Part shown: in pieces, positions 52,590 through 64,000 of the stretch
How positions within the stretch are numbered: the first letter of the stretch is position 1
How the letters are laid out: each line of letters opens with the position of its first letter
Source: Streptomyces sp. AC555_RSS877
Lineage (GTDB): Bacteria; Actinomycetota; Actinomycetes; Streptomycetales; Streptomycetaceae
Length of the DNA: 64,000 nt
NCBI RefSeq assembly: GCF_019049245.1
Contig: NZ_JAGMUK010000052.1
Span: 29,185-93,184, forward strand
Reading direction: 5' to 3'
Program-made: the position numbers and the translations under genes
Notes under the pieces: model-generated
What the model was told of the DNA's origin: nothing
Seen by the model: the letters and a program-made list of their open reading frames with translations, nothing else
Databases searched by the model: none

Positions 52590-52925
52590 TCAAGCGCCAC
52601 CCGGTACGGAGCGGCTTTCCAGCGCTTCGAGCCGTTCGGTCAACGCCTTGAGTTGGGAGCGGATTTCCTTGATGTCATCGCGTACGTCGTCACCCGGGGC
52701 AGACCCGTCGCTGACGAAGTTGCCCAGGTTCCCCGCTGACACGATCAGTCCTTCGGACCGGAGTGCAGCTAGCCCGTTCTGGATGGTCTGGCTCGCATAT
52801 CCGAAGCGGTCCATCAACTCTCGCTGAGACGGGAGTTTCTCCCCCGGCTTCATCTTCTTGATGTCGTCGCGGAGAGCGTCCGCGACCTGCACCGCCTTCG
52901 GCTTGGGCCCTCCTGTGACAGTCAT
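52590..52925 (-). CDS. Short GntR-type regulator (KorSA-like role)
   Basis: This 111-residue protein has a GntR winged helix (about 10-75, KLPSQRELMDRFGYASQTIQNGLAAL) followed only by a coiled-coil tail (about 80-105), without an effector domain. In pSAM2-type elements a GntR protein represses transfer genes; here the dimer may do likewise. The CTAG-containing palindromes at 52947-52960, 52991-53008 and 55187-55210 are the likely binding sites. A minus-strand -10-like TAGGGT lies at 52964-52969. Confidence 0.82.
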   Translation of the reverse strand: MTVTGGPKPKAVQVADALRDDIKKMKPGEKLPSQRELMDRFGYASQTIQNGLAALRSEGLIVSAGNLGNFVSDGSAPGDDVRDDIKEIRSQLKALTERLEALESRSVPGGA

Positions 52926-52946
52926 GACTTGAGGGTACCCACCACA

Positions 52947-53008
52947 GCGAACTAGTTCGCATCACCCTACGAGGGTTGTGCACCACAGCAGACTAGTGCA
53001 AGCTAGTC
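52947..53008. promoter_or_regulatory. Two CTAG-type operators between GntR gene and transfer operon
   Basis: GCGAACTAGTTCGC (52947-52960) is a perfect 14-bp palindrome. GACTAG-N6-CTAGTC (52991-53008) is a spaced one. CTAG is rare in Streptomyces DNA. On the plus strand TTGTGC (52976-52981), 17-bp spacer and CAAGCT form a possible promoter overlapped by the second site. Confidence 0.6.
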
Positions 53009-53273
53009 AGTAAGAGGTCGCCCCGACTCAAAGGGGAAACCGCTTGACCTGCACAGACAGCGTCCGGAGGAAAGCCCGAGGGGGTGAGTACGAAGGAAGC
53101 GCCGGTTCCTTGAGAACTCAACAGAGTGCTTTGAGATCGACGGGGCTTGCCCCTGTCCCCGTGACGGCCGGGTGAGGACCGTCGGCCCCGGTATCCAGCC
53201 GTGAGGGCGCGGAATCGACTTCCGCCCGGGGCCACTTGGGGTCCGCCGCGACGTGCGGCGTTGGCCCTCACCT
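53009..53273 (+). promoter_or_regulatory. Long leader of the transfer operon with rRNA-like box
   Basis: The gene-free leader contains TTGAGAACTCAACAG (53110-53124), the same as a sequence I know from Streptomyces 16S-23S spacers and rRNA leaders. It could serve as an antitermination signal (inference). GC-rich hairpin sequences follow before the RNA element at 53274. Confidence 0.45.
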
Positions 53274-53349
53274 CCGACGCGGCGGCACTCCCGGACAGGA
53301 CAGCCCGCCGCGTCGGATCTCCCATTCCCGACGTTCCAAGGAGAGATCC
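53274..53349 (+). promoter_or_regulatory. Repeated RNA element, copy 1 (transfer module)
   Basis: A 12-bp perfect stem CCGACGCGGCGG/CCGCCGCGTCGG (53274-53285 with 53305-53316) carries the 19-nt loop CACTCCCGGACAGGACAGC. A second stem GGATCTC/GAGATCC (53315-53321 with 53343-53349) covers the AAGGAGAG ribosome binding site of the next gene. The two stems share bases 53315-53316, so they may be mutually exclusive at their edge. Confidence 0.7.
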
Positions 53350-53352
53350 ACC

Positions 53353-53649
53353 ATGCGTATGCGCACCTTCGTCGCCGGCCAGGAAGCGCACGGTGACATC
53401 GAGTTCGCGGAACTGGCGCTCGGTATCGACGTCGACCTGTTCCGGGGCCCGTTGGAGTTCGAGACGGACGGCGAGCGTGCCGCCCGCGAGGACGCGGCCC
53501 GTGACATCCTCGCCGACCTGCGTGCGGAGGCGGAGGCCGGTGACGAGATCGCCGGTTGGGACGCCCTGTACGCCGACGCGCTGACCCGTACGGTGCCGTT
53601 CCTGCGCTCCGCTCGCGGCTACCGGTCGGGGACGGGGGAAGCGGCATGA
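53353..53649 (+). CDS. Small acidic AICE protein
   Basis: The 98-residue product is rich in Asp, Glu and Ala and largely helical, with no motif that I recognise. It is the first gene of the transfer block and stands directly behind RNA element copy 1. The next gene overlaps its stop (ATGA). Confidence 0.65.
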   Translation: MRMRTFVAGQEAHGDIEFAELALGIDVDLFRGPLEFETDGERAAREDAARDILADLRAEAEAGDEIAGWDALYADALTRTVPFLRSARGYRSGTGEAA

Positions 53650-54767
53650 ACGAGACCCGCAAGCCTCTGACGAAAGTTCAGATCGGCGTTCTGACGGCTG
53701 CGTTCGTGCCGATGCTCGCCACGGGCGTGGTCGGCGGGATCGGCACGTACAGCAACATCGGGCACGCCTACGGCACGGGGACCGCGCTCGGTGCCCTCGG
53801 TGCCGGTGAGGGCGCCACGGCCGTTCTCGCCCTGGTTCTGCTGGGACTGACCATGCTGGGCCAGTCCTCGCCGCGCGTCGTACGGATCGGGTTGTGGGCG
53901 CTGCCGGCCGCCGCCGCCGTCATGGGTGCCATGGCCGCGCCGGACCCGGGGCGGACCGTGATCTACGCCCTGACCCCGATGGGCATGTCCGTGTCGGCGG
54001 AGGGCATGGCGTTCCTCGCCCGCCGGATCGTCGTTCACACCGACGGCCGGGACGCGGAGAACGAGCGGCGCACCGCCGAGATCGTGCAGGCCCTCGCCTA
54101 CCACCGGGCGCGTGCCGCACACCACCCGGTCGACCGGGTGCGGAAGCGGTCGGATCGGGCGTCGTGGCGTCTGGCGCGCAAGGTCGGGGTCGGGGATGCC
54201 GCGCTCGGGTCGAGGCTGCTGGATGTCCAGCGCGACCGGATCGCGGACGGTGCGGATGCCGCGCTCGGGTCGATGTTCGGCGGCACGGCCCCCGCCCTCG
54301 CGCCGGTTCCCGACGTGGACGCGAATGCGGAGGAATCTACCGAGACCATGAGGAATCGGTCTATGGCTGACCTGCGGGAATCGACCCCGGCGCCGTCGGT
54401 GGTGCTGACCCGCTTGCCCGCACCCGATCCGGTGCCGGTCGACTTCATGAAGCCGACTCTTCCCTTCAAGCCTGCCCCGGCGCTCGCCTCGCCGGTCGAC
54501 TCGGCCGGGCGGCGGGCGGTGGCGGTCGACTCCCCCCGATCCCGTCGGGCGACCGGCCGGGTTCCCGACGTGGCCCGGTCGTCCCGACCGAAGCGCACGG
54601 CGGATCAGTTGCTCACTGAGGCCCGCACCGCGACCGCCGATTGGCCGGACAGCCGGATCACGGCGGAGGGCATCCGCCGGGAACTCCGTACCTCGCCGGC
54701 GAACGCGCGGACGCTGCGGGACACGATCCTCGCCGAACGTGCCGCCGACGGCGGTAAGGCCGCGTGA
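53646..54767 (+). CDS. AICE membrane protein (DUF2637/Spd-like)
   Basis: The 373-residue protein has about four N-terminal helices (residues 14-125), a long polar linker and a C-terminal helical domain (about 325-365, ITAEGIRRELRTSPANARTLR) that looks like a small DNA-binding or winged-helix segment. Such proteins sit beside traB in AICEs and are thought to help intramycelial spread or the transfer pore (inference). ATGA overlap with the gene before and GTGA with the one after. Confidence 0.65.
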   Translation: MNETRKPLTKVQIGVLTAAFVPMLATGVVGGIGTYSNIGHAYGTGTALGALGAGEGATAVLALVLLGLTMLGQSSPRVVRIGLWALPAAAAVMGAMAAPDPGRTVIYALTPMGMSVSAEGMAFLARRIVVHTDGRDAENERRTAEIVQALAYHRARAAHHPVDRVRKRSDRASWRLARKVGVGDAALGSRLLDVQRDRIADGADAALGSMFGGTAPALAPVPDVDANAEESTETMRNRSMADLRESTPAPSVVLTRLPAPDPVPVDFMKPTLPFKPAPALASPVDSAGRRAVAVDSPRSRRATGRVPDVARSSRPKRTADQLLTEARTATADWPDSRITAEGIRRELRTSPANARTLRDTILAERAADGGKAA

Positions 54768-55147
54768 AGCGGCTGACCCTCGCCGACTGCTTCGACCCGG
54801 ACGGCGAGCGCTTCGGCATCCCCACCTACCCGTGGCGATACGCCCCCGACGACCTGGCCACCCGCCGCCAACTCCGCACACGTGGACTGCGCCCGGGTGG
54901 TCAGGACATCGCGGCACAGATCCTCCGGCCGCGCCGTCGGCGCGAACCGTTGACGGCATACCTGTACCGGGTCGACCTCGCCCGGCCGGTGAGGCCGATG
55001 ACCCCGGCGAGGTGGGCGGCGCTCGCCAAGGCCAATGCCGCCCGCCGCCGTTGCCCCGAGTGCGGCCGGGACGCCGGATACGTGATCCCTTCCTCGCTCG
55101 GGTCCTGTGTGACCTGCGCCTTTCCCGAAGACCAGCGCGCTGCCTGA
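54764..55147 (+). CDS. RRQRL-motif zinc-binding protein
   Basis: This 127-residue protein is of a type common in AICEs, with TRRQLRTRGLRPGGQ and a C-terminal zinc ribbon (CPECGR, then CVTCAF). Function unknown. GTG start overlaps the previous stop. Transcription may end here, since a new operator and the traB gene follow after 160 bp. Confidence 0.72.
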   Translation: MKRLTLADCFDPDGERFGIPTYPWRYAPDDLATRRQLRTRGLRPGGQDIAAQILRPRRRREPLTAYLYRVDLARPVRPMTPARWAALAKANAARRRCPECGRDAGYVIPSSLGSCVTCAFPEDQRAA

Positions 55148-55186
55148 GTACCACCAACGAACACACAGAGTGAAGCTAAGGCTCAG

Positions 55187-55210
55187 AACTAGCCCAAACC
55201 CAGGCTAGTT
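55187..55210. promoter_or_regulatory. CTAG-type operator upstream of traB
   Basis: AACTAGCC-N8-GGCTAGTT is a perfect inverted repeat about 100 bp before traB. It shares the ACTAG half-site with the operators beside the GntR gene. Confidence 0.6.
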
Positions 55211-55310
55211 ACGGCCCTTCCACGGCTTCACGATCGTTCCTGGGTCCGGCCGCCCGACCTTCCACAGCAAGCCAGCCGGACCCTTCGACTCCCGAAGGAG
55301 TGCGTACATC

Positions 55311-57539
55311 GTGACGGAAACCACCGCCTTCCCGCCCTCGGAGGACCCGGAGGGCTCCGAACAGCCGACGGCCGACATCGTGCCGTTCCCGCTGAAGAAG
55401 AAGACCGACCCCGACCCGACCGCTCCGAGCGAGGGTGTCGTGAAGCCGGGGGAGTGGGAGGCCGAACTCCCCGACACCGACGACCCGGAGGCCGACGGCC
55501 TGAGCGAGGGCGCGCCGGTCGACCCGCCGCGCGAGGTCTACCCGCCCTCGGTCGCGGAATGGATGGAGGCCAAGGACAAGGCCCGTCTGCCGGTGCTGCC
55601 GGACTGGGTGAAGCTGCCTGACCAGCGCACGGCGGTCCGCAAGTGGGCCGTGCGGCACTACTCCGCCGTGGTCGGCTACCACGTGGTCCGGCTCCCGCTG
55701 GTCTACACGCCGAAGATCTGCATGTACTCGCCGCGCGGCGCGTGGCGGTGGTCGACCGCGATCGGCCGATGGGTGTTCGACGCGGAGGGCAAGGGCTTGC
55801 GGCTCGCCTCCGTGGCCAACGAGGACGCGGCGGAGTACCTGAAGCTGTCCCGGCAGCGCAACGACCGCGTACGGCTGCGGGGGATCGTCGCGACGGTCGT
55901 CGGGTTCGTCGGTCTGGCCGCCGCGCTGACCCTGTACGTCATGGCGCCGTCGTGGCTGCTCATGCTGGCCATGGCGACGCTGGCCACCACCCTGGGTGTG
56001 GTCGGTGCGCCGGCGGACCGGCCGCTCATCGACATGGCCAAGGTGACGTTCCGCAAGCGCAAGCTGTCCTCGGACATCGTCATCCGCGCACACGAGGCGG
56101 CCGGGCTGACGACCAAGGATCAGACGATTGCCTTCCCGCGGCCGATCGGGCGGGACGGGGACGGGTGGCGCGTGATCGTGGATCTGCCGTACGGCAAGAC
56201 GTTCGAGGACGCGATGAAGGCTCACGCCCGTCTCGCCTCCGGTATGGACATCGCCCCCACTCAGCTCTTCCTCGACAAGGACGAGACGAGCGGGCGGCGG
56301 GTGTCGTACTGGATTGCCGACCGTGACCCGCTCGCCGTGCCGTCGGGCAAGTCGCCGCTGCTGGGGGCGACGCGGGTGGACTTCTGGAAGCCGTTCCCGT
56401 GGGGTGTCGACGAGCGGGGCAACCCGGTCATGGCCACGATGCTGTGGCTGTCGCTGCTGGTAGGCGCCGTGCCGCGGCAGGGCAAGACGTTCTCAGCGCG
56501 CACGATCGCGCTCGCCGCTGCGCTGGATCCGTACGTGCGCCTGTACGTGTTCGACGGGAAGGCGTCGCCGGACTGGCGCAAGTTCGCGTTGGTCGCGCAC
56601 CGCATCGGCTTCGGCATCGTCCCGAAGAACGGGGTCGACCCGGTGGGGCATCTCCTGACCTCCCTGCGGGAGTTGAAGGCGGATGTGGAGGACCGGTACC
56701 ACCGGCTCTCGGAACTGCCTCTGCACGTCTGCCCGGAGGGCAAGCTGACCCCGGAGATCAGCCGGGACAAGAAGCTGAACATGCCCCTGACCCTGTTCGT
56801 GGTGGATGAGGTGCAGGAGTACCTGACCCACCCCGAGCACGGCAAGGAAATCCTGTCCCTGATGGTCTACCTCGCCCGCGTCGCCCCGGCCGTCGGCGTC
56901 TCCGTGATGACGGCGACGCAGAAGCCGGACGACAAGGCGTGCCCGTCAGAGCTGCGTGACCAGCATCAGGCCCGGTTCGCCCTGCGGGTAGGCGCCTACC
57001 AGGTGTCGGACACGATCCTCGGTGCGGGGTCGTACTCGGAGGGGTTGGACGCGTCCAAGCTGCTGAAGTCCCACAAGGGCGTCGGTCTGCTCAAGGGCAT
57101 GTCCGACGACTCCGGGATCGTGCGCACCTACCTCGCCGACGGCCGCGACGCCGAACGTGTCCTGACCCGTGCCGCCGCGTTGCGCGAGGCGGAGGGGACC
57201 CTGTCGGGTGACGCGGTCGGCGAGGTCCCGGCGGCGGAGACGTCCGCGACGATCCTTGACGACGTCGCGGCCGTGCTCGGCAAGGGCGAGGCCAAGGTGT
57301 GGTCGGAAACGGTCGTGGACCGGCTTGCCGACCTGCGCCCGGACGTCTACGGCCCGTGGGCGGAGTTGGAGCCCAAGCCCAAGGCGGAAGCGCTCACCGC
57401 CGCGCTCAAGCCGTACGGCATCGGCACGATGCAGATCAGCCGGCGCATCGACGGCGAACAGGTCAACAAGCGCGGCATCAAGCGCGACGACATCGCCACC
57501 GCGATTACGCAGCGCAACCAGAAGCGGGACGCCGGATAG
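55311..57539 (+). CDS. traB: FtsK/SpoIIIE-type conjugative translocase (TraB)
   Basis: This 742-residue DNA pump moves double-stranded element DNA between hyphae in Streptomyces conjugation. It has an acidic N-terminus, membrane helices (about 185-230), Walker A GAVPRQGKT (385-393), Walker B LFVVDEVQEY (about 495-504) and a C-terminal region (about 650-742) that would hold the winged helix for recognition of clt repeats. AAGGAG precedes the GTG start. A CTAG operator upstream suggests control by the GntR protein, expected because unregulated tra genes are lethal in related plasmids (Kil phenotype). Confidence 0.9.
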   Translation: MTETTAFPPSEDPEGSEQPTADIVPFPLKKKTDPDPTAPSEGVVKPGEWEAELPDTDDPEADGLSEGAPVDPPREVYPPSVAEWMEAKDKARLPVLPDWVKLPDQRTAVRKWAVRHYSAVVGYHVVRLPLVYTPKICMYSPRGAWRWSTAIGRWVFDAEGKGLRLASVANEDAAEYLKLSRQRNDRVRLRGIVATVVGFVGLAAALTLYVMAPSWLLMLAMATLATTLGVVGAPADRPLIDMAKVTFRKRKLSSDIVIRAHEAAGLTTKDQTIAFPRPIGRDGDGWRVIVDLPYGKTFEDAMKAHARLASGMDIAPTQLFLDKDETSGRRVSYWIADRDPLAVPSGKSPLLGATRVDFWKPFPWGVDERGNPVMATMLWLSLLVGAVPRQGKTFSARTIALAAALDPYVRLYVFDGKASPDWRKFALVAHRIGFGIVPKNGVDPVGHLLTSLRELKADVEDRYHRLSELPLHVCPEGKLTPEISRDKKLNMPLTLFVVDEVQEYLTHPEHGKEILSLMVYLARVAPAVGVSVMTATQKPDDKACPSELRDQHQARFALRVGAYQVSDTILGAGSYSEGLDASKLLKSHKGVGLLKGMSDDSGIVRTYLADGRDAERVLTRAAALREAEGTLSGDAVGEVPAAETSATILDDVAAVLGKGEAKVWSETVVDRLADLRPDVYGPWAELEPKPKAEALTAALKPYGIGTMQISRRIDGEQVNKRGIKRDDIATAITQRNQKRDAG

Positions 57540-57551
57540 GTCTCACAGCCT

Positions 57552-57639
57552 GCTACCGGTAGCGGCAGACGTCGCTACCGGTAGCAACCCTGCTAGCGAC
57601 CCAAACCGCCCCTGATCAGGCCGCTAGCACATAGCGGCC
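57552..57639. repeat. Cluster of palindromes after traB (possible clt locus)
   Basis: Two copies of GCTACCGGTAGC (57552-57563, 57574-57585) are followed by TGCTAGCG (57591-57598) and CGCTAGCA (57622-57629) as an inverted pair, and a hairpin GGCCGCTA-GCACA-TAGCGGCC (57619-57639). Position next to traB suits a transfer locus or a regulatory site. No T run marks a terminator. Confidence 0.5.
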
Positions 57640-57680
57640 GACCTGCGGAAACCCCCTCCAACCCCTCTGGGAGGCCCCTG

Positions 57681-57932
57681 ATGAGCCTTGCAGTGCTGGC
57701 TACCGCATTCCTACTGACCGTCACCCTCGGTTACGTCGTCAAGTGCTGGCTGAGCCCGTTCGGGGACTGCCGCAAGTGCGACGGCATGGGCCACGGCTTC
57801 AAGACCGACCGCAAGGGCAAGACCAAGCGCGGCCGTGACTGCCGCCGCTGCGACGCCACCGGCAAGCGCATACGCGTCGGCCGCTGGATCTACAACCGCG
57901 CCGCGCGCACCTACCGCGCCGGCACCCGCTGA
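57681..57932 (+). CDS. Small membrane protein with DnaJ-like Cys pairs
   Basis: The 83-residue protein has an N-terminal helix (about 3-24), then CRKCDGMGHG and CRRCDATGK, which look like one zinc-binding unit of a DnaJ-type finger, and a basic tail. It is frequent in AICE spread clusters. Function unknown. Confidence 0.7.
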   Translation: MSLAVLATAFLLTVTLGYVVKCWLSPFGDCRKCDGMGHGFKTDRKGKTKRGRDCRRCDATGKRIRVGRWIYNRAARTYRAGTR

Positions 57933-57949
57933 CCCCGTCCGGAGGCCCC

Positions 57950-58144
57950 GTGGACATCACCATCTCGCTCGTTCTGTTGCTCGCCGTCGGCGTCGCGCTG
58001 CTGTTGCGCTTCAAGGCCGTCGGTGCCGGTGCGGCCGTCGTCATCGCGCTCTTCGGCTTCTACCTCGCCGGCACCGACCCGAGCGACACCGTCAACCAGC
58101 TCGTCACCGCCGTCACCGGCGCCCTCGCCGACGCTGGCCGCTAG
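57950..58144 (+). CDS. Small two-helix membrane protein (Spd-like)
   Basis: The 64-residue, mostly hydrophobic product has two probable helices (about 3-20 and 26-42). GGAGG sits close to the GTG start. Small membrane proteins like this follow traB in Streptomyces plasmids and assist spread (family analogy). Confidence 0.65.
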   Translation: MDITISLVLLLAVGVALLLRFKAVGAGAAVVIALFGFYLAGTDPSDTVNQLVTAVTGALADAGR

Positions 58145-58160
58145 AAGGGAGACCAGCACC

Positions 58161-58628
58161 GTGAACGAACCCACCGCGTACGGCCGCCCGGCCCGACACG
58201 AGACGGCGGCTGTCGGAGTCCACACCCCCACCCCGATCGTCCCCGCCCACACCGCCCCGCTCATGCCCGTGCAGCCGGGCACCATCCCGGCCGTGACGAG
58301 CATCGTCCTCCCCGACGGCCGCGTCGTCACCGGCTACGCCATCGAGCCCGCCAAGCCCGAACCGGTCGCGCACAAGCCGGCCGTCTCCCGTGCGGCGGTG
58401 AACATCGCGCTCGGCGGCGTGGGGTTCCTCGCCGTGTGCGGCGGACTGCTCATGCTCACCGCATTCATCACCGCCCTGACTGCCCTGGTCACCCAGCTCG
58501 TCATCCTCGCCGCCGTCATCTTCGGCGGCTGGATCGCCGTGCAGATGTTCAGCGCGAGCGGCCACGGCGGCGGGACGACGGTGAACATCCGCAAGGCCGT
58601 GATCAAGCGGAACAAGTTCTACGGCTGA
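58161..58628 (+). CDS. Spread-type membrane protein (SpdB-like)
   Basis: The 155-residue product has a Pro-rich cytoplasmic N-terminus (1-75), two adjacent membrane helices (about 85-130) and a short basic tail. It fits SpdB-type proteins that extend plasmid spread from the first contact site. GAAGGGAG lies before the GTG start. Confidence 0.65.
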   Translation: MNEPTAYGRPARHETAAVGVHTPTPIVPAHTAPLMPVQPGTIPAVTSIVLPDGRVVTGYAIEPAKPEPVAHKPAVSRAAVNIALGGVGFLAVCGGLLMLTAFITALTALVTQLVILAAVIFGGWIAVQMFSASGHGGGTTVNIRKAVIKRNKFYG

Positions 58629-58645
58629 GAAGGAGATCGACACCT

Positions 58646-58930
58646 GTGATCCGACTGCGTATCCAGCGCACCGCGCTGCCTCGCAACGCCGTGATCCTGA
58701 CGGACACGCCTCGCCCCGACTGTCGTGACTGCGACGGTGTGGGCGGCATCCCGCACGACCACGGCGACCACACCGGCGAGTACGCCGGCACCGAGTGGGA
58801 GCCCTGCCCCTGTTGGACGGAGTGGCGCATGGGCCTGATGCCGCTCCCGCGCCTGCCCCGGTGGCTGCGCCGTCGTGACAACGGTCGCGACCCGTGGGGG
58901 CCCGGCTACAGCAACGAACCGCCCTTCTGA
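58646..58930 (+). CDS. Small zinc-ribbon-like AICE protein
   Basis: The 94-residue product has CRDCDGVGG, a His-rich loop (HDHGDHTG) and CPCW, a likely metal site, then a basic PRLPRWLRRR tail. AAGGAG precedes the GTG. Function unknown. The Cys pattern resembles that of the 57681-57932 product, so the two may be related. Confidence 0.6.
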   Translation: MIRLRIQRTALPRNAVILTDTPRPDCRDCDGVGGIPHDHGDHTGEYAGTEWEPCPCWTEWRMGLMPLPRLPRWLRRRDNGRDPWGPGYSNEPPF

Positions 58931-58945
58931 TCCGACGGGAGTCTC

Positions 58946-59176
58946 ATGACCGACCGCAACAACGACCCCATCTCTGACGGCCCGCTCGACAGCGCCCCGT
59001 TCGGCTTCTCGCCCGAGCCTTTGCAGCGTGAGGCCCTGTTCGCCGAACTCGACAACGCGGGCGTCGAACTGGGCACGTACGACCGGCTGATCGTCGACTG
59101 GATCGCCCGGTGGGACTACCCCACCGTGGCAACCATCGCGAGTCTGATCCGCCGCGCGGGTGGCACCACGAAGTAG
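58946..59176 (+). CDS. Small AICE protein of unknown function
   Basis: The 76-residue product ends in a conserved-looking helical half (LGTYDRLIVDWIARWDYPTV then ATIASLIRRAG) that resembles a small helix-turn-helix. GGGAG lies before the ATG. It is the last gene before RNA element copy 2. Confidence 0.6.
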   Translation: MTDRNNDPISDGPLDSAPFGFSPEPLQREALFAELDNAGVELGTYDRLIVDWIARWDYPTVATIASLIRRAGGTTK

Positions 59177-59182
59177 CTACGC

Positions 59183-59261
59183 CCGTGGGCGGCGGTCACT
59201 CCCGGACAGGACAGCCCGCCGCTCACGGTCTCCCAATCCCGACGTAGCAGAACAGGAGACC
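59183..59261 (+). promoter_or_regulatory. Repeated RNA element, copy 2 (replication module)
   Basis: A 13-bp stem (59183-59195 with 59216-59228, one G-U) carries the loop T + CACTCCCGGACAGGACAGC. The outer pairs CCGTG/CACGG differ from copy 1 (CCGAC/GTCGG) but still pair. A second stem GGTCTCC/GGAGACC (59227-59233 with 59255-59261) covers the AGGAGA ribosome binding site. Confidence 0.7.
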
Positions 59262-59267
59262 TTCAGC

Positions 59268-59381
59268 ATGACCCAACCGCGCGTTTTCGGCGAGGGCCCT
59301 TCGGCCCCTGCCACCCGATCGGGGCGAGTGCCCCGGCCGCGCCTACCTCGCTGCCACCGGACATTGAGGGCGGCGGCATGA
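59268..59381 (+). CDS. 37-residue peptide leading the replication module
   Basis: ATG at 59268 lies 7 nt after AGGAGACC and the frame ends overlapping the next ATG (ATGA). The product is basic, Pro/Arg-rich and short. It may be a leader peptide that couples RNA element copy 2 to translation of the primase gene (inference). Confidence 0.55.
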   Translation: MTQPRVFGEGPSAPATRSGRVPRPRLPRCHRTLRAAA

Positions 59382-60253
59382 GCGCGACGCCCGAACCTCT
59401 GCGGGTTGCCCTCGCCCTCGCGGCGGCCGGTGTCCCGGTCCTGCCGCTGCGGGGCAAGGTCCCGTTCGGCAACTGCCGTTCCTGCAAGGACGGCGCTTGC
59501 GGCGGTCGACCCAATATGAAGGCGGCGGGCCCCTGCCTATGTCCCGCGCCGTGTCACGCGTGGGCCGCCGCGACCACCGACGCGCACGCCCTCACCTCGC
59601 CCGTGTGGGCGCCGGTGTGGCGTGAGGCGGTGGCTGTCGCCTACCACCCCGGCGGGGCCGGGCTGACGGTCGTCGACCTGGACAACGCGGCGGCCGTCGC
59701 ATGGGCCCGCGAGACCCTGCCCGCCACCCGCACCGTGCCGACGACGCGCGGTGAGCACTGGCTCTACCGGGGCGCCATGGCGTCGTCCAACGCGGTCCGG
59801 CCGGGGGTCGACATCAAGTCCCTTACGCAGTATGCCCGTTGGCTGGGAGCCGGGACGGGCGGTATGGCCGTTCTCCCGGCGGCCGTGCGCGCCATGGTGG
59901 TGAAGGAAGAGACCACCCCCGCGCCCGGGGAGGTGGCATCTTCCCTTCCCGCCCGCGCCACGTGGGACCGGTCGGTGGCCACCGGGTGCCGCCACACCGA
60001 GCGCTACGTCCGCACTGGCCTGGAACGCGGCCTCGCCCTCGTGCGGGCCCGGACCGAATCCGGCGCCGGTTCGCAGGCTTTCGGGGTCGCGAGGTTCCTC
60101 GCCGCCCAGCACACCGGGTGCCCGGGGCCGTGCGGACTGGCCGTACTCGGGGACGCCATCGTCGCCGTCGCCGTCTCCGTGGGCGTCCCGGAGACCTACG
60201 CCCGCCGCGCGGTCGCCAACGGCCTTGAGGCGGCTGTGGAGCGTGCGGCATGA
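59378..60253 (+). CDS. Bifunctional DNA primase/polymerase (Prim-Pol)
   Basis: This 291-residue protein of the AICE/plasmid Prim-Pol family begins LALAAAGVPVLPLRGKVPF and has a Cys-rich zinc segment (CRSCKDGACGG, CLCPAPCHAW). The metal-binding VVDLD, the TTRGEHWLYR strand and a further Cys pair near the C-terminus follow. It should prime and extend DNA during autonomous replication of the excised element. It overlaps both neighbours (ATGA). Confidence 0.85.
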   Translation: MSATPEPLRVALALAAAGVPVLPLRGKVPFGNCRSCKDGACGGRPNMKAAGPCLCPAPCHAWAAATTDAHALTSPVWAPVWREAVAVAYHPGGAGLTVVDLDNAAAVAWARETLPATRTVPTTRGEHWLYRGAMASSNAVRPGVDIKSLTQYARWLGAGTGGMAVLPAAVRAMVVKEETTPAPGEVASSLPARATWDRSVATGCRHTERYVRTGLERGLALVRARTESGAGSQAFGVARFLAAQHTGCPGPCGLAVLGDAIVAVAVSVGVPETYARRAVANGLEAAVERAA

Positions 60254-60573
60254 ACAAAGCATCCCGAACCCCCTCGAACGGCCCTCAGGGCGCCGTACGG
60301 CGCCTGCCACGGCCGTCGGTGGGCGAACCGAAGGTCGCCGCCCGCAAGGGCGTCCTTTCTGTCCTTGGTTCTGACCCGCAGACGGTCACCGTCACCGGCA
60401 TCACCCCGGGGCTTCAGATCCAGTGCGAGGGCGTACCGGTCGCGGACTCGCTGTGTGCCTGCGGGCATCACGAACGCGCCCGGGGGCGTGCCGCCGTCAT
60501 CAGGCTCACCGTCCGCCTCCGCGTCGGCGCCTGCCCGCACACCGCCACCGCCGAAGGGAGGGCGGCCTCATGA
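60250..60573 (+). CDS. Small protein between the replication genes
   Basis: This 107-residue basic product has a possible beta-strand middle (VTVTGITPGLQIQCEGVPV) and Cys/His residues (CACGHHER, ACPH) that may bind metal. It overlaps the primase and helicase genes (ATGA on both sides), so it probably works in replication. Not recognised. Confidence 0.6.
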   Translation: MNKASRTPSNGPQGAVRRLPRPSVGEPKVAARKGVLSVLGSDPQTVTVTGITPGLQIQCEGVPVADSLCACGHHERARGRAAVIRLTVRLRVGACPHTATAEGRAAS

Positions 60574-62132
60574 CTCCACAGCCTGTGGACAGCCCCGACC
60601 TGTGGGTCGGACTGCCCACCCTGGAAGACCCGCCCGGCGAGGACGACACGGCCCCCGACGTGTGGGAGGACCCCATTCCCCTCACCGGCCGCCGTGAGCG
60701 TCCGCCGTTCCCCGCCCAGGTGTTCCCCACCTGGCTGGGGGAGTTCGTGGTGGCCGTCGCGGAGGAGACGCAGACCCCGGTGGACCTTGCAGGTTCGGTC
60801 GCCCTCGCCGTGCTCGCCACGGCGGCCGGTGGTCGGTCGGTGGTCCACGTGCGCGGGAACTGGCGTGAGCCGACCAACCTCTTCACGGTGGTCGCGCTCC
60901 CGCCCGCCAACCGCAAGTCCGCCGTCTTCTCGCTGTTGGCCAACCCCCTCTATGAGGCTGAGAAACAGCTCAAGACCGCGATGCAGCCCGTCATCGTCGA
61001 AGCGGAGCTGACAGCGCGGTTGGCCAAGGAAGCGGCGGACAAAGCCGCCGCCAAGGCCGCGTCCGCCGACGGCGACAAGCGGCAAGAGATGGTGGCCACG
61101 GCCGTCGGCCTCGCGCAGACGGCCGACACGCTCACCATCCCCGCTGAACCCGTGCTGTTGGCGGACGACTCGACACCCGAGACGGTCACCTCGCTCATGG
61201 CCGAACAGGGCGGCCGGCTGTCGGTGATGAGCGCCGAGGGCGGCATCTTCGACATCATCGCCGGCCGCTACTCCGGCGCCCCCAACATGGAAGTCTTCCT
61301 CAAAGGCCATGCCGGGGACCGGTTGCGGGTCAACCGGCAGACCCGCCGCGAGTACATTGACGCCCCCGCCCTCACCATCGGCCTCGCCGTACAGCCGGAT
61401 GTGCTGCGCGACATCGGCAAGGTGAAGGGGTTCGAGGGACGCGGACTGCTGGCCCGCTTCCTGTACTCCCTCCCGGTGTCCACGGTCGGCGAACGCGAGA
61501 TCATCACCGACCCGGTCCCCGAGCAGACGGCCGCCACCTACACCGCGAAGGTCATCGACCTCACCCTGTCCCTGGCGGAGTGGACCGACCCGGCCGTCAT
61601 CCAGCTCACCTCAGAAGCCGACGCGGCCCTGATCACGTATCAGAAGCGCATCGAACCGCAGCTCAAGGCACGTGGCGGCAAGCTGGGTCACATCTCCAAC
61701 TGGGCCGGAAAACTAGCCGGAGCGACCGCCCGCATGGCCGCGCTGCTGCACCTCGCCGAACATGGCGGCAACGGCTACGCCCACCCGGTCACCGCCGCCA
61801 CCATGGATGCGGCGATTGAGCTGGGGGAGTACTACACCGCTCACGCCCTCGCCGTGTTCGACGTCATGGGCGCCGACCCCGTCCTGTCCCGCGCCCGCAG
61901 CGTCCTGGAAGCGCTGAGGGACAACGGATGGGAGGACGTCAGCCGACGGGATGTGTTCACCGTCCTGTCCCGCAGCGAGGTCCCCACCGTCGCGGATCTC
62001 GAACCGGCCCTCGCGTTGCTGGAAGACCACGGCTATCTGCGGTCCTACCAGCCGGAGCGCACCGGCAAGCGCGGACGCCCGCCGGCCCCCCGCCTCGCCG
62101 CCCACCCGTCCCTGCGCCACGGCGGCCGGTGA
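60570..62132 (+). CDS. DUF3987 (YfjI-type) replicative helicase-like protein
   Basis: This 520-residue DUF3987 protein has a degenerate P-loop (ALPPANRKSAVF) after AGSVALAVLATAAGG, then LLADDSTPETV and a conserved FEGRGLLARFLYS arginine region, with a C-terminal winged helix (about 425-500). In AICEs it acts with the Prim-Pol as the replication initiator. The two functions are separate genes here. Confidence 0.82.
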   Translation: MTPQPVDSPDLWVGLPTLEDPPGEDDTAPDVWEDPIPLTGRRERPPFPAQVFPTWLGEFVVAVAEETQTPVDLAGSVALAVLATAAGGRSVVHVRGNWREPTNLFTVVALPPANRKSAVFSLLANPLYEAEKQLKTAMQPVIVEAELTARLAKEAADKAAAKAASADGDKRQEMVATAVGLAQTADTLTIPAEPVLLADDSTPETVTSLMAEQGGRLSVMSAEGGIFDIIAGRYSGAPNMEVFLKGHAGDRLRVNRQTRREYIDAPALTIGLAVQPDVLRDIGKVKGFEGRGLLARFLYSLPVSTVGEREIITDPVPEQTAATYTAKVIDLTLSLAEWTDPAVIQLTSEADAALITYQKRIEPQLKARGGKLGHISNWAGKLAGATARMAALLHLAEHGGNGYAHPVTAATMDAAIELGEYYTAHALAVFDVMGADPVLSRARSVLEALRDNGWEDVSRRDVFTVLSRSEVPTVADLEPALALLEDHGYLRSYQPERTGKRGRPPAPRLAAHPSLRHGGR

Positions 62133-62470
62133 CCCCTACCCGCCCAGACCCCTCCCGCACAAACCGCGAAATCCGCAATAACCCTGGACGCCCCCGCTGA
62201 CCTGCGACGCGGCCCCCGCCCCATCCCGGCCGGGGCCCGTCGCACAATCCCGCGATATTCCGCAAAAAAACCGAGCACCACCCCACCCACCGGGGCCGGT
62301 CACTGGCCGCCCCTGATTTTTGCGGAATATCGCGGGTTTCTGCGGAGCACTGTCCACCACCGCCCGCACATCACATCACCTCAGGTCAGCACCCATCCCC
62401 GGCTTTTCTGCGGATTTTGCGGTTTGTGCGGCGGCATCTGCCCGTGAAATCAGCCTCATCGGAGTGAGCC
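62133..62470. other. Origin-like region between rep and xis
   Basis: This 338-bp gene-free region has a perfect 20-bp inverted repeat (62249-62268 with 62317-62336, half-site CCCGCGATATTCCGCAAAAA) around a 48-bp spacer. Several TGCGG/CCGCA iteron-like copies with A/T runs occur on both sides (for example TTCTGCGGA at about 62338 and 62405, TTTTGCGGT at about 62413). AT-rich tracts are unusual here. It is a good candidate for the replication origin bound by the DUF3987/Prim-Pol proteins. Confidence 0.6.
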
Positions 62471-62698
62471 TTGGACGAACACGGCACCCTCGCGACCCCC
62501 GCAGACGACGACGCCACGTTGGTTCTCCTCAAGGTTGAAGAGGCCGCCCGTCGACTCCGCATCGGCCGGACCACATGCTTCGCGCTCATCCGCACCGGCG
62601 AACTGGAGTCCGTCATGGTCGGCGGTCTCCGCCGCGTCCCCGCCGACGCGCCGGCCGCGTATGTCACCCGTCTCCGCACCGCCCACCAAGCCGCTTGA
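62471..62698 (+). CDS. xis: Excisionase (Xis)
   Basis: This 75-residue MerR/HTH_17-type protein, LLKVEEAARRLRIGRTTCFALIRTGELESVMVG with RRVP, is the usual AICE excisionase that directs integrase towards excision. Start TTG at 62471 with GGAG 6 nt upstream. It lies directly before int, separated by RNA element copy 3. Confidence 0.88.
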   Translation: MDEHGTLATPADDDATLVLLKVEEAARRLRIGRTTCFALIRTGELESVMVGGLRRVPADAPAAYVTRLRTAHQAA

Positions 62699-62704
62699 CG
62701 ACGC

Positions 62705-62747
62705 CCGGGGCGGCGGCACTCCCGGACAGGACAGCCCGCCGCTCCGG
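62705..62747 (+). promoter_or_regulatory. Repeated RNA element, copy 3 (integrase)
   Basis: A 12-bp stem (62705-62716 with 62736-62747, one G-U) carries the same 19-nt loop CACTCCCGGACAGGACAGC. The outer pairs are CCGG/CCGG, again different from the other copies. The conserved TCCCGAC follows, and AGGAG (62771-62775) before int. A second stem over the ribosome binding site is weaker here. Confidence 0.7.
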
Positions 62748-62782
62748 TCTCTATCCCGACACCGAGAATCAGGAGTCTGCCC

Positions 62783-64000
62783 GTGGCAGAGGAACAGAAG
62801 CGCACTCGACAGCCCAACGGCCGTAGCTCGATCTACTTGGGCAAAGACGGTAAGTGGCACGGCCGCGTCACCGTCGGCATCCGAGACGACGGCACCCCGG
62901 ACCGCCGCCACGTGGAACGCAAGACCCGCGCCGAAGTGACGGGCGCCGTACGCGAGTTGGAGAATCAACGCGACGCCAAGACCGTGAAGAAGCCCGGCAA
63001 GGCGTGGACGGTCAAGGCCTGGCTGACGCACTGGATTGAGAACGTCGCGCCCCTCGCCGTCAACGACAACACGATGGTCGGGTACGGCGTCGCCGTGCGA
63101 AAGCACCTCATCCCCGGCTTGGGTGCTCACCGTCTCGACAGGCTCAAGCCTGAGCACATCGAGGCGTTCTACGCCAAGATGCAGGCCAACGGCAGTAAGC
63201 CCGCGACCGCTCACCAGGTGCACCGAACCTTCCGCACCGCCCTCAACGAAGCCGTACGGCGCGGGCATCTCGGCAAGAACCCCGTCCAGTTGGCCAAGGC
63301 ACCGAAAACGGGGGAACACGAGGTAGAGCCCTACAACGTCCAAGAGGTACAGCGGTTGCTCAAAACTGCTGACCAGCAGCGCAACTCAGCTCGCTGGGCC
63401 ATCGCCCTCGCGCTCGGACTGCGACAAGGGGAAGTGCTTGGTCTGAGGTGGGACGACGTGGACCTTGACGGTGGATTCCTCGTGGTCCGCCGTAGTCGTC
63501 ACCGGCCGCAGTACACCCACGGGTGCGCGGACCCCTGCGGTCGCAAGGCCGCCGGATACTGCCCGCAGAGGCGTCGCACGAACCCGGAGTTGGCCACCAC
63601 CAAGTCGCGCGCCGGCCGCCGCGCCGTCGGTCTTCCCGAGCAACTCGTCGACCTACTCCGTGCCCACCTCAAGGCGCAGGAAGGGGAGCGGGCGACGGCC
63701 GGGAATCGCTGGGAGGAGAACCAACTGGTCTTCCCGGATGAACACGGCCGTAGTCCGTCCCACCGTCGGGACTGGGCCGAGTGGAAGGCACTCCTCACGG
63801 AGGCGAACGTCCGAGACGGACGCCTTCACGACGCGCGCCACACGGCAGCGACGGTCTTGCTCATCCTCGGTGTCCCCGAGCGTGCCGTCATGGGCCTCAT
63901 GGGGTGGTCGACCACCGCCATGGCCGCTCGATATCAGCACATGGTGGATGCCGTGCGGGCCGACGTCGCGAGGCAAGTGGACGGCCTCATCTGGAAGTCC
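62783..64000 (+). CDS. int: Tyrosine integrase, C-terminus cut by window edge
   Basis: The 406 codons visible encode an AICE site-specific recombinase: an N-terminal arm-binding domain, a core-binding domain (about 75-170) and the catalytic domain with Arg214, Lys274, His349, Arg352, Trp375 (in place of the usual His) and Tyr384. A Cys-containing insertion (HGCADPCGRKAAGYC) lies in the catalytic domain. It should recombine attP with the tRNA-Cys anticodon loop. GTG at 62783 with AGGAG 7 nt upstream. No stop codon is reached. Confidence 0.93.
   Translation, partial: MAEEQKRTRQPNGRSSIYLGKDGKWHGRVTVGIRDDGTPDRRHVERKTRAEVTGAVRELENQRDAKTVKKPGKAWTVKAWLTHWIENVAPLAVNDNTMVGYGVAVRKHLIPGLGAHRLDRLKPEHIEAFYAKMQANGSKPATAHQVHRTFRTALNEAVRRGHLGKNPVQLAKAPKTGEHEVEPYNVQEVQRLLKTADQQRNSARWAIALALGLRQGEVLGLRWDDVDLDGGFLVVRRSRHRPQYTHGCADPCGRKAAGYCPQRRRTNPELATTKSRAGRRAVGLPEQLVDLLRAHLKAQEGERATAGNRWEENQLVFPDEHGRSPSHRRDWAEWKALLTEANVRDGRLHDARHTAATVLLILGVPERAVMGLMGWSTTAMAARYQHMVDAVRADVARQVDGLIWKS

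Follow-up and report, generated by a model that had tools for sequence, protein, structure and literature searches.

The window analysed here is a stretch of 64,000 nucleotides from contig NZ_JAGMUK010000052.1 of Streptomyces sp. AC555_RSS877, and it carries a short hairpin that recurs three times, ahead of genes for transfer, replication and integration (Table 1). Judged by a gene content that associates an integrase, an FtsK-like Tra and a Rep/Prim-Pol module in one element, the three copies appear to sit in a single actinomycete integrative and conjugative element (AICE), which would fit the Prim-Pol AICE class as described in the available text of PMC3218068. An earlier note on this DNA had proposed that the copies represent a functional RNA, for instance a switch for the joint opening of transfer, replication and integration genes, or the target of one shared RNA-binding protein or antisense RNA.

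Table 1. Hairpin copies, associated motifs and genes of the element (window positions; SD, Shine-Dalgarno sequence; ORF, open reading frame)
Feature	Start	End	Strand	Remarks
Copy 1 hairpin	53273	53317	+	13-bp stem 53273-53285/53305-53317, loop 53286-53304; before transfer block; folded by RNAfold
Copy 1 linker	53318	53352	+	contains SD GGAGAG 53340-53345, predicted to pair with GGATCTC
TCCCGAC downstream of copy 1	53326	53332	+	
98-aa ORF, MRMR family	53353	53649	+	first gene of transfer block; without Pfam, PHROG or NCBIfam match
TraB-like DNA translocase	55311	57539	+	FtsK/SpoIIIE-like by PHROG 1358, E 1.3e-29
Copy 2 hairpin	59183	59228	+	13 pairs 59183-59195/59216-59228, bulged T 59196, loop 59197-59215
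Copy 2 second hairpin	59227	59261	+	GGTCTCC 59227-59233 pairs with SD stretch GGAGACC 59255-59261
TCCCGAC downstream of copy 2	59237	59243	+	
37-codon ORF	59268	59381	+	TGA overlaps Prim-Pol ATG at 59378
Prim-Pol (PF09250)	59378	60253	+	
DUF3987 (PF13148), helicase-like replication protein (PHROG 2373)	60570	62132	+	scanned from upstream GTG 60423
Small HTH_17 protein	62471	62698	+	excisionase-like by position; ends 6 nt before copy 3
Copy 3 hairpin	62705	62747	+	12 bp 62705-62716/62736-62747, loop 62717-62735
TCCCGAC downstream of copy 3	62754	62760	+	
Tyrosine integrase (PF00589)	62783	64000	+	gene end about 45 bases past the window

The 19-nt loop, CACTCCCGGACAGGACAGC, occurs at exactly three exact places in the window, all on the forward strand, and the window held no further match to it with up to 3 mismatches (shuffle mean 0.08). 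Genome-wide, exact matches to its 17-nt core are restricted to these same copies, with 6 extra places at 2 mismatches. A dispersed mobile palindrome of the REP type, with copies spread over the genome in both orientations, does not fit, as the only three exact places in the genome all lie in this element. The exact common loop, the common inner stem GCGGCGG/CCGCCGC with compensatory outer pairs, the shared downstream TCCCGAC and the position directly before gene starts, all described in the earlier note, were recovered from the window letters, with the refinement that the gene start following copy 2 belongs to a 37-codon ORF. In the window copies, RNAfold tops the main stem with an internal loop, above which come an inner helix of 2-3 bp (UCC/GGA) and an apical loop of 6-7 nt. 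The hairpin of copy 2 begins 6 nt past a stop codon (59174-59176), and the first GG of its second hairpin is also part of the main stem in the RNAfold structure. Leader z-scores were -4.1, -2.1 and -1.4 for copies 1, 2 and 3, the last value making thermodynamic stability alone modest for copy 3.

A hairpin family of Streptomyces mobile elements

A scan for the loop with 2 mismatches returned matches in 157 of the 392 genomes of the genus, many of which were due to chance or to an unrelated coding motif. The latter corresponds to near-matches of the form CAC[C/G]CCCGGACAGGACCGC, which in many genomes come in pairs separated by about 5 kb; in five inspected loci (L040, L041, L042, L055 and L056) they were found to code for LFGTPGQDRFWFMWDDL within two mismatches of the loop, twice about 5 kb apart and thrice in L042, and were discarded as parts of what are presumably GTPase-like genes. 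From 25 true-looking copies in twelve loci, a first covariance model was built, which at order level matched 31 of 293 genomes at E 0.001, weak matches included; all were of the same genus bar one, a weak match in another genus (G407, E 9e-4). At class level, the 5 matching genomes of 296 were all of the same genus. A gapped exact pattern searched against 84,980 named species gave 79 stretches, 77 of them titled Streptomyces; the two others (L156 and L176) had no covariance-model match at E 0.02. Of these stretches, 52 were searched further, leaving out those apparently identical to contigs of loci already included. Matches up to E 0.02 from 29 + 52 loci gave a family of 169 non-redundant copies: of 86 matches in the 52 loci, 85 were carried on, the dropped one being L159 7856 (E 0.0036), and 172 matches in all became 169 after removal of identical sequences. 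Applied to 199 genomes of the genus, a second covariance model matched 29; at class level it matched 6 of 246, again all of the same genus.

The viral contigs searched held no copies, and the 98-aa protein, the only sequence compared in that way with plasmids and phages, had no match there by tblastn; the window region itself gave two partial matches to plasmids. Within what was searched, the family is seen only in Streptomyces mobile elements. None of the Rfam 15 covariance models matched the hairpins of the window and of seven divergent loci, so that the family, repeated before the transfer, replication and integration modules of many Streptomyces elements, is without an Rfam 15 entry.

Three alignments document the conservation of the fold. 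In A1 (25 copies, MAFFT), 95.4% of the stem cells are paired, with two-sided changes at 8 of 13 pairs; two-sided cells number 37 versus 8.7 in shuffles (0/500), and each slide of the register by 1-3 columns collapses the pairing. A3 takes the best 150 of 165 copies, aligned by fitting to the model; here pairing reaches 94.7%, with 223 two-sided cells versus 60.7 when shuffled, but pairs showing a two-sided change are no more numerous than in shuffles (8 vs 7.6). In A4 (22 diverse copies, MAFFT), two-sided changes affect 11 of 12 stem pairs (0/500 shuffles). The proposal of a functional RNA is therefore upheld by strong stem covariation in the three alignments and by the recurrent place of the 169 copies relative to control. 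Homologues with unpaired stems had been named as evidence to the contrary, and 95% of the stem cells pair. Among 108 distinct hairpins, G.U outnumbers A.C in the stems (46 vs 22, P 0.005), as expected for RNA of the sense strand. By RNAfold, the main stem and the inner mini-helix are present in most of 34 diverse hairpins; L099, L230a and L231b are among the exceptions, as are two hairpins whose inner helix is reduced to one pair. Conservation within the hairpin is highest in the loop letters. Hairpins with divergent loops (such as UCUCGCCAAAGA, UCCCCAGCAAGG and CCCGGCCAAGGA) keep the architecture of the family ahead of TraB-like, Prim-Pol, MRMR-like and other genes, and some matches of the second model lack a following gene or are due to chance, such as L231 8449, L233 6536 and L249 15043.

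The downstream TCCCGAC resembles TCCCGGAC of the loop and is a possible second binding site. The downstream motifs of L102 (UCCCUGCC) and L099 (UCCC[G/A]ACCA) each resemble the loop of their own element, as if one binder touched both; a downstream motif varying with the loop was not seen in the other divergent subtypes.

A start rule requiring an SD, a start codon and an ORF of at least 25 aa after the hairpin was passed by 166 of the 169 copies, compared with 33% (1123/3380) of places drawn at random from these loci, and a stricter rule by 159 of 169 versus 8.6% of random places and 19/169 on the opposite strand; by eye, the three failing copies have a GGGG-type SD followed by ATG or GTG. The end of the stem and the start codon are separated by a median of 36 nt (range 29-66, n=166). 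Automatic labels assigned the next gene to integrase (39), MRMR (39), methyltransferase-type leader (22), MTER (19), Prim-Pol (17), HAAT (5), other (25) and none (3); inspection by eye placed among the "other" genes a long TraB-like ORF, a gene with a RapZ-C domain, and variants of Prim-Pol, methyltransferase and MRMR. For copies with a detected upstream stop, the integrase class starts 4-6 nt after it (30/30, for 39 copies in total), methyltransferase-type copies 6-7 nt (22/22) and Prim-Pol copies 5-6 nt (14/16, the other two at 146 and 184); for the integrase and replication classes together, 66 of 68 copies lie 4-7 nt past the stop. From this spacing, these copies are predicted to be intercistronic within a polycistronic mRNA, unless a promoter is hidden in the upstream gene. 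MTER and HAAT copies are mostly farther from any upstream gene. In the replication class, the stretch following the stem pairs with the SD better than swapped controls in 38 of 39 cases (22/22 and 16/17).

As for the neighbouring genes of the window, a Pfam FtsK match to the TraB-like translocase was absent in the profile search. The first 26 or so residues of the 37-codon ORF match the start of a DNA methyltransferase (PHROG 363, E 2.4e-32), which in the related element L050 comes after the corresponding hairpin copy, and intact relatives of this gene are present in other elements; the ORF thus looks like an N-terminal remnant of such a gene. The stem of copy 1 is of the type usual before MTER genes, yet the gene after it is MRMR, which suggests that sequence between two copies was once deleted. 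TTGAGAACTCAACAGAGTGC (53110-53129), at the operon start, has three other places in the genome, one on a contig with 16S rRNA and two without Rfam match, and we take it to resemble the Streptomyces rRNA-leader/boxA region. A scan of 52900-63000, which covers Streptomyces promoters poorly, returned no sigma-70-like promoter.

Loop type is shared by all copies of an element

The loop exists in more than one type. In the copies fitting the loop pattern (152 and 151 of the 169 in the two tests), the letter following GGACA is G in most cases. Seven multi-copy elements have A or T there throughout (20 copies), as does one contig with a single copy. Elements mixing G and non-G copies were not observed (0 of 45 multi-copy elements), whereas within-class permutations gave 17 on average (minimum 11), and non-G letters occur in each of the four main classes: 6/36 integrase, 6/42 MRMR, 7/44 replication and 2/17 MTER copies. 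In two elements (L054 and L092), the MTER copy has T and the other copies A. An A-insertion a few bases away follows gene class (5/36 integrase, 38/44 replication) and is mixed in 29 of 45 elements. The proteins of the seven non-G elements do not group, with best matches within the group in 0/4 cases for the integrase, 0/5 for Prim-Pol and 3/7 for TraB. Strain SA15 holds both loop types on two contigs, as apparently does S. graminilatus. The concordance of the loop letter would be best explained by one partner common to all copies of an element. The shared binder evoked in the earlier note thus gains indirect support from the element-wide match; the partner itself was not found.

Several candidates for this partner were considered. 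An antisense RNA, also put forward initially, found no backing: no conserved loop complement was detected outside the elements in 17 loci, the 11-12-nt complements outside them being at unconserved places (L039, L093 and L097), and the matches in L048 and L087 corresponding to the element's own antisense. An ORF family present in 4 non-G elements and none of the others (26 elements) proved to be the reverse strand of a GntR-containing region that also occurs in G-type loci. The stand-alone RapZ C-terminal domain (PF22740), which we take to be RNA-binding, was rejected as the binder, being present in few loci. The same domain was observed as cargo in L111 (3051-3437), L089, L145, L132 and L240, with a hairpin before it in L111 and L132.

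A putative operator and its alternatives

The reading we favour, with a probability of about 0.6, is that the hairpin is a cis-acting RNA operator, present several times along a single operon of the conjugative element, in its intercistronic leaders. Each copy forms a hairpin of 12-13 bp that carries an internal loop, an inner helix of 2-3 bp and an apical loop of 6-7 nt, and lies about 36 nt ahead of the start codon of a module's first gene. A trans-acting factor, one per element, would bind every copy and jointly set how the transfer, replication and integration modules are translated (or how stable their mRNA is). In front of replication genes, the predicted SD-covering second hairpin shares two bases with the main stem, and binding of the factor could free or lock the SD. 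The fold, seen by covariation, and the position, orientation, copy number and element-wide loop match are observations, whereas the factor and the level and sign of control are conjectural. Two observations favour an operator on translation: the copies keep their position relative to the start codon rather than to the beginning of the operon, and the loop is their best conserved part. More tentatively, the loop may act as an element-specific RNA address, the factor of an element reading its own loop type on all modules and ignoring the loops of a rival in the same cell. This suggestion is possible rather than probable; SA15 indeed hosts two elements with different loop types. If true, it would amount to RNA-level self-recognition of a whole regulon. 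Natural loop variants matched across an element provide ready-made swaps, and the hairpins are short portable parts for the control of expression in Streptomyces.

A number of results weigh against the operator and its common factor. The covariation tests were made without phylogeny correction, and A3 was fitted to the model. The SD pairing seen in the replication class does not extend to the others: compared with swapped controls, it is better in 20 and worse in 14 of 39 integrase copies, which shows no trend, better in 7 and worse in 32 of 39 MRMR copies, and better in 3 and worse in 8 of 19 MTER copies. SD covering would therefore be a trait of the replication class, not a general one belonging to the core element. 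A switch opening all modules together, as suggested in the earlier note, would have this pairing behind it in the replication class only. The A-insertion, used as a class-following control, is also less mixed within elements than in permutations (29 vs 37.6). No shared protein family follows the loop type, and no single residue was significant in 12 protein families, the best reaching 7/100 permutations. When 14-mers and 16-mers were compared in about 25-30 kb around seven non-G and 18 other elements, only the hairpin separated the types. Because nothing else in these regions does so, the determinant of the partner either lies outside them, or is not a simple shared sequence, or is absent.

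One alternative is concerted evolution without a partner, in which gene conversion homogenises the copies of one element and the loop match is neutral. The copies may indeed recombine, as window copy 1 with its MTER-like stem before an MRMR gene seems to indicate, and the A-insertion is somewhat clustered by element; yet stems stay gene-class-specific, no element with mixed G and non-G copies was seen while the nearby insertion is mixed in most, and the MTER copies of L054 and L092 reached a non-G letter by T, not A. We consider this explanation improbable, and it concerns the loop match only. About as doubtful is an RNA processing or stability site, at which an RNase would cut or protect the intercistronic hairpin and separate the module mRNAs. 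A place directly after the stop codon and a long GC-rich stem with an internal loop would suit such a site, which would not need an invariant loop, whereas here the loop is the best conserved part and is matched across the element; the fixed distance to the start codon also suggests a ribosome-related role.

Control of transcription elongation seems quite unlikely; in this reading the copies would cause pausing, termination or antitermination along one long operon, perhaps in connection with the boxA-like leader at 53110. That leader is identical to a sequence beside a 16S rRNA gene, and antitermination operates in Firmicutes conjugation operons according to the available text of PMC8955417. 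Against this, the copies do not look like intrinsic terminators, their stems having no T run after them, and a scan of 52900-63000, limited to loops of 3-8, gave 7 terminator-like sites, all of them away from the copies. Their position follows start codons and not the operon start, and boxA-like sequences were detected in 7 of the 18 loci L039-L056, 5 of these having only the unrelated coding match. The inverted repeat and the conjugative and integrative nature of the elements would be compatible with a DNA-level site, such as a protein-binding palindrome or a transfer or recombination site, of which the hairpin is a by-product. This is very improbable given the constant orientation to the next gene, the near-constant start distance, the excess of G.U over A.C on the sense strand and the asymmetry of the conserved loop. 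The weights given to these alternatives are rough and overlap.

Comparison with known systems

The available texts of the literature on AICEs, pSAM2, SLP1, Streptomyces structured RNA and conjugation antitermination (including PMC3218068, PMC2864571 and PMC11109978) contain no description of this hairpin. In its available part, PMC11109978 reports 107 protein-binding and 250 mobile or repeat candidates, S. avermitilis included, among which an unnamed entry for this hairpin is possible. The element resembles SLP1-type AICEs with Prim-Pol and RepPP in its integrase, FtsK-like Tra and Prim-Pol modules, and no RNA element, stem-loop or hairpin is mentioned for these in the accessible text of PMC3218068. 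RNA-level control of long conjugation operons by antitermination is documented in the portions available of PMC8955417 and PMC11658703; unlike such systems, the hairpin copies keep to start codons and do not resemble terminators. The gntR-DTE RNA (RF02989), a Streptomyces RNA found upstream of the first hairpin in two related element operons (L244:2640-2765 and L233:12214-12367), differs in structure and place, and matches neither the hairpins nor the window.

The family shares with translational operators of the MS2 type a short hairpin with a conserved loop close to the SD and start codon. These operators, of which the MS2 coat operator is an example, are bound by a phage or ribosomal protein. 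The present hairpins differ from them by occurring in three to five copies per operon, one per module, in a conjugative element, and by a binder that is only inferred here. Leaders of the CsrA/RsmA type have a GGA in a hairpin loop near the SD and several sites per regulon, two features also found here, whereas a covaried 12-13-bp stem and a long conserved loop set the family apart from the CsrA consensus. Promoters are the main level at which actinomycete conjugative elements are known to be controlled (KorSA/Pra type), and a repeated RNA operator, if true, would add a post-transcriptional layer tying all modules to one signal.

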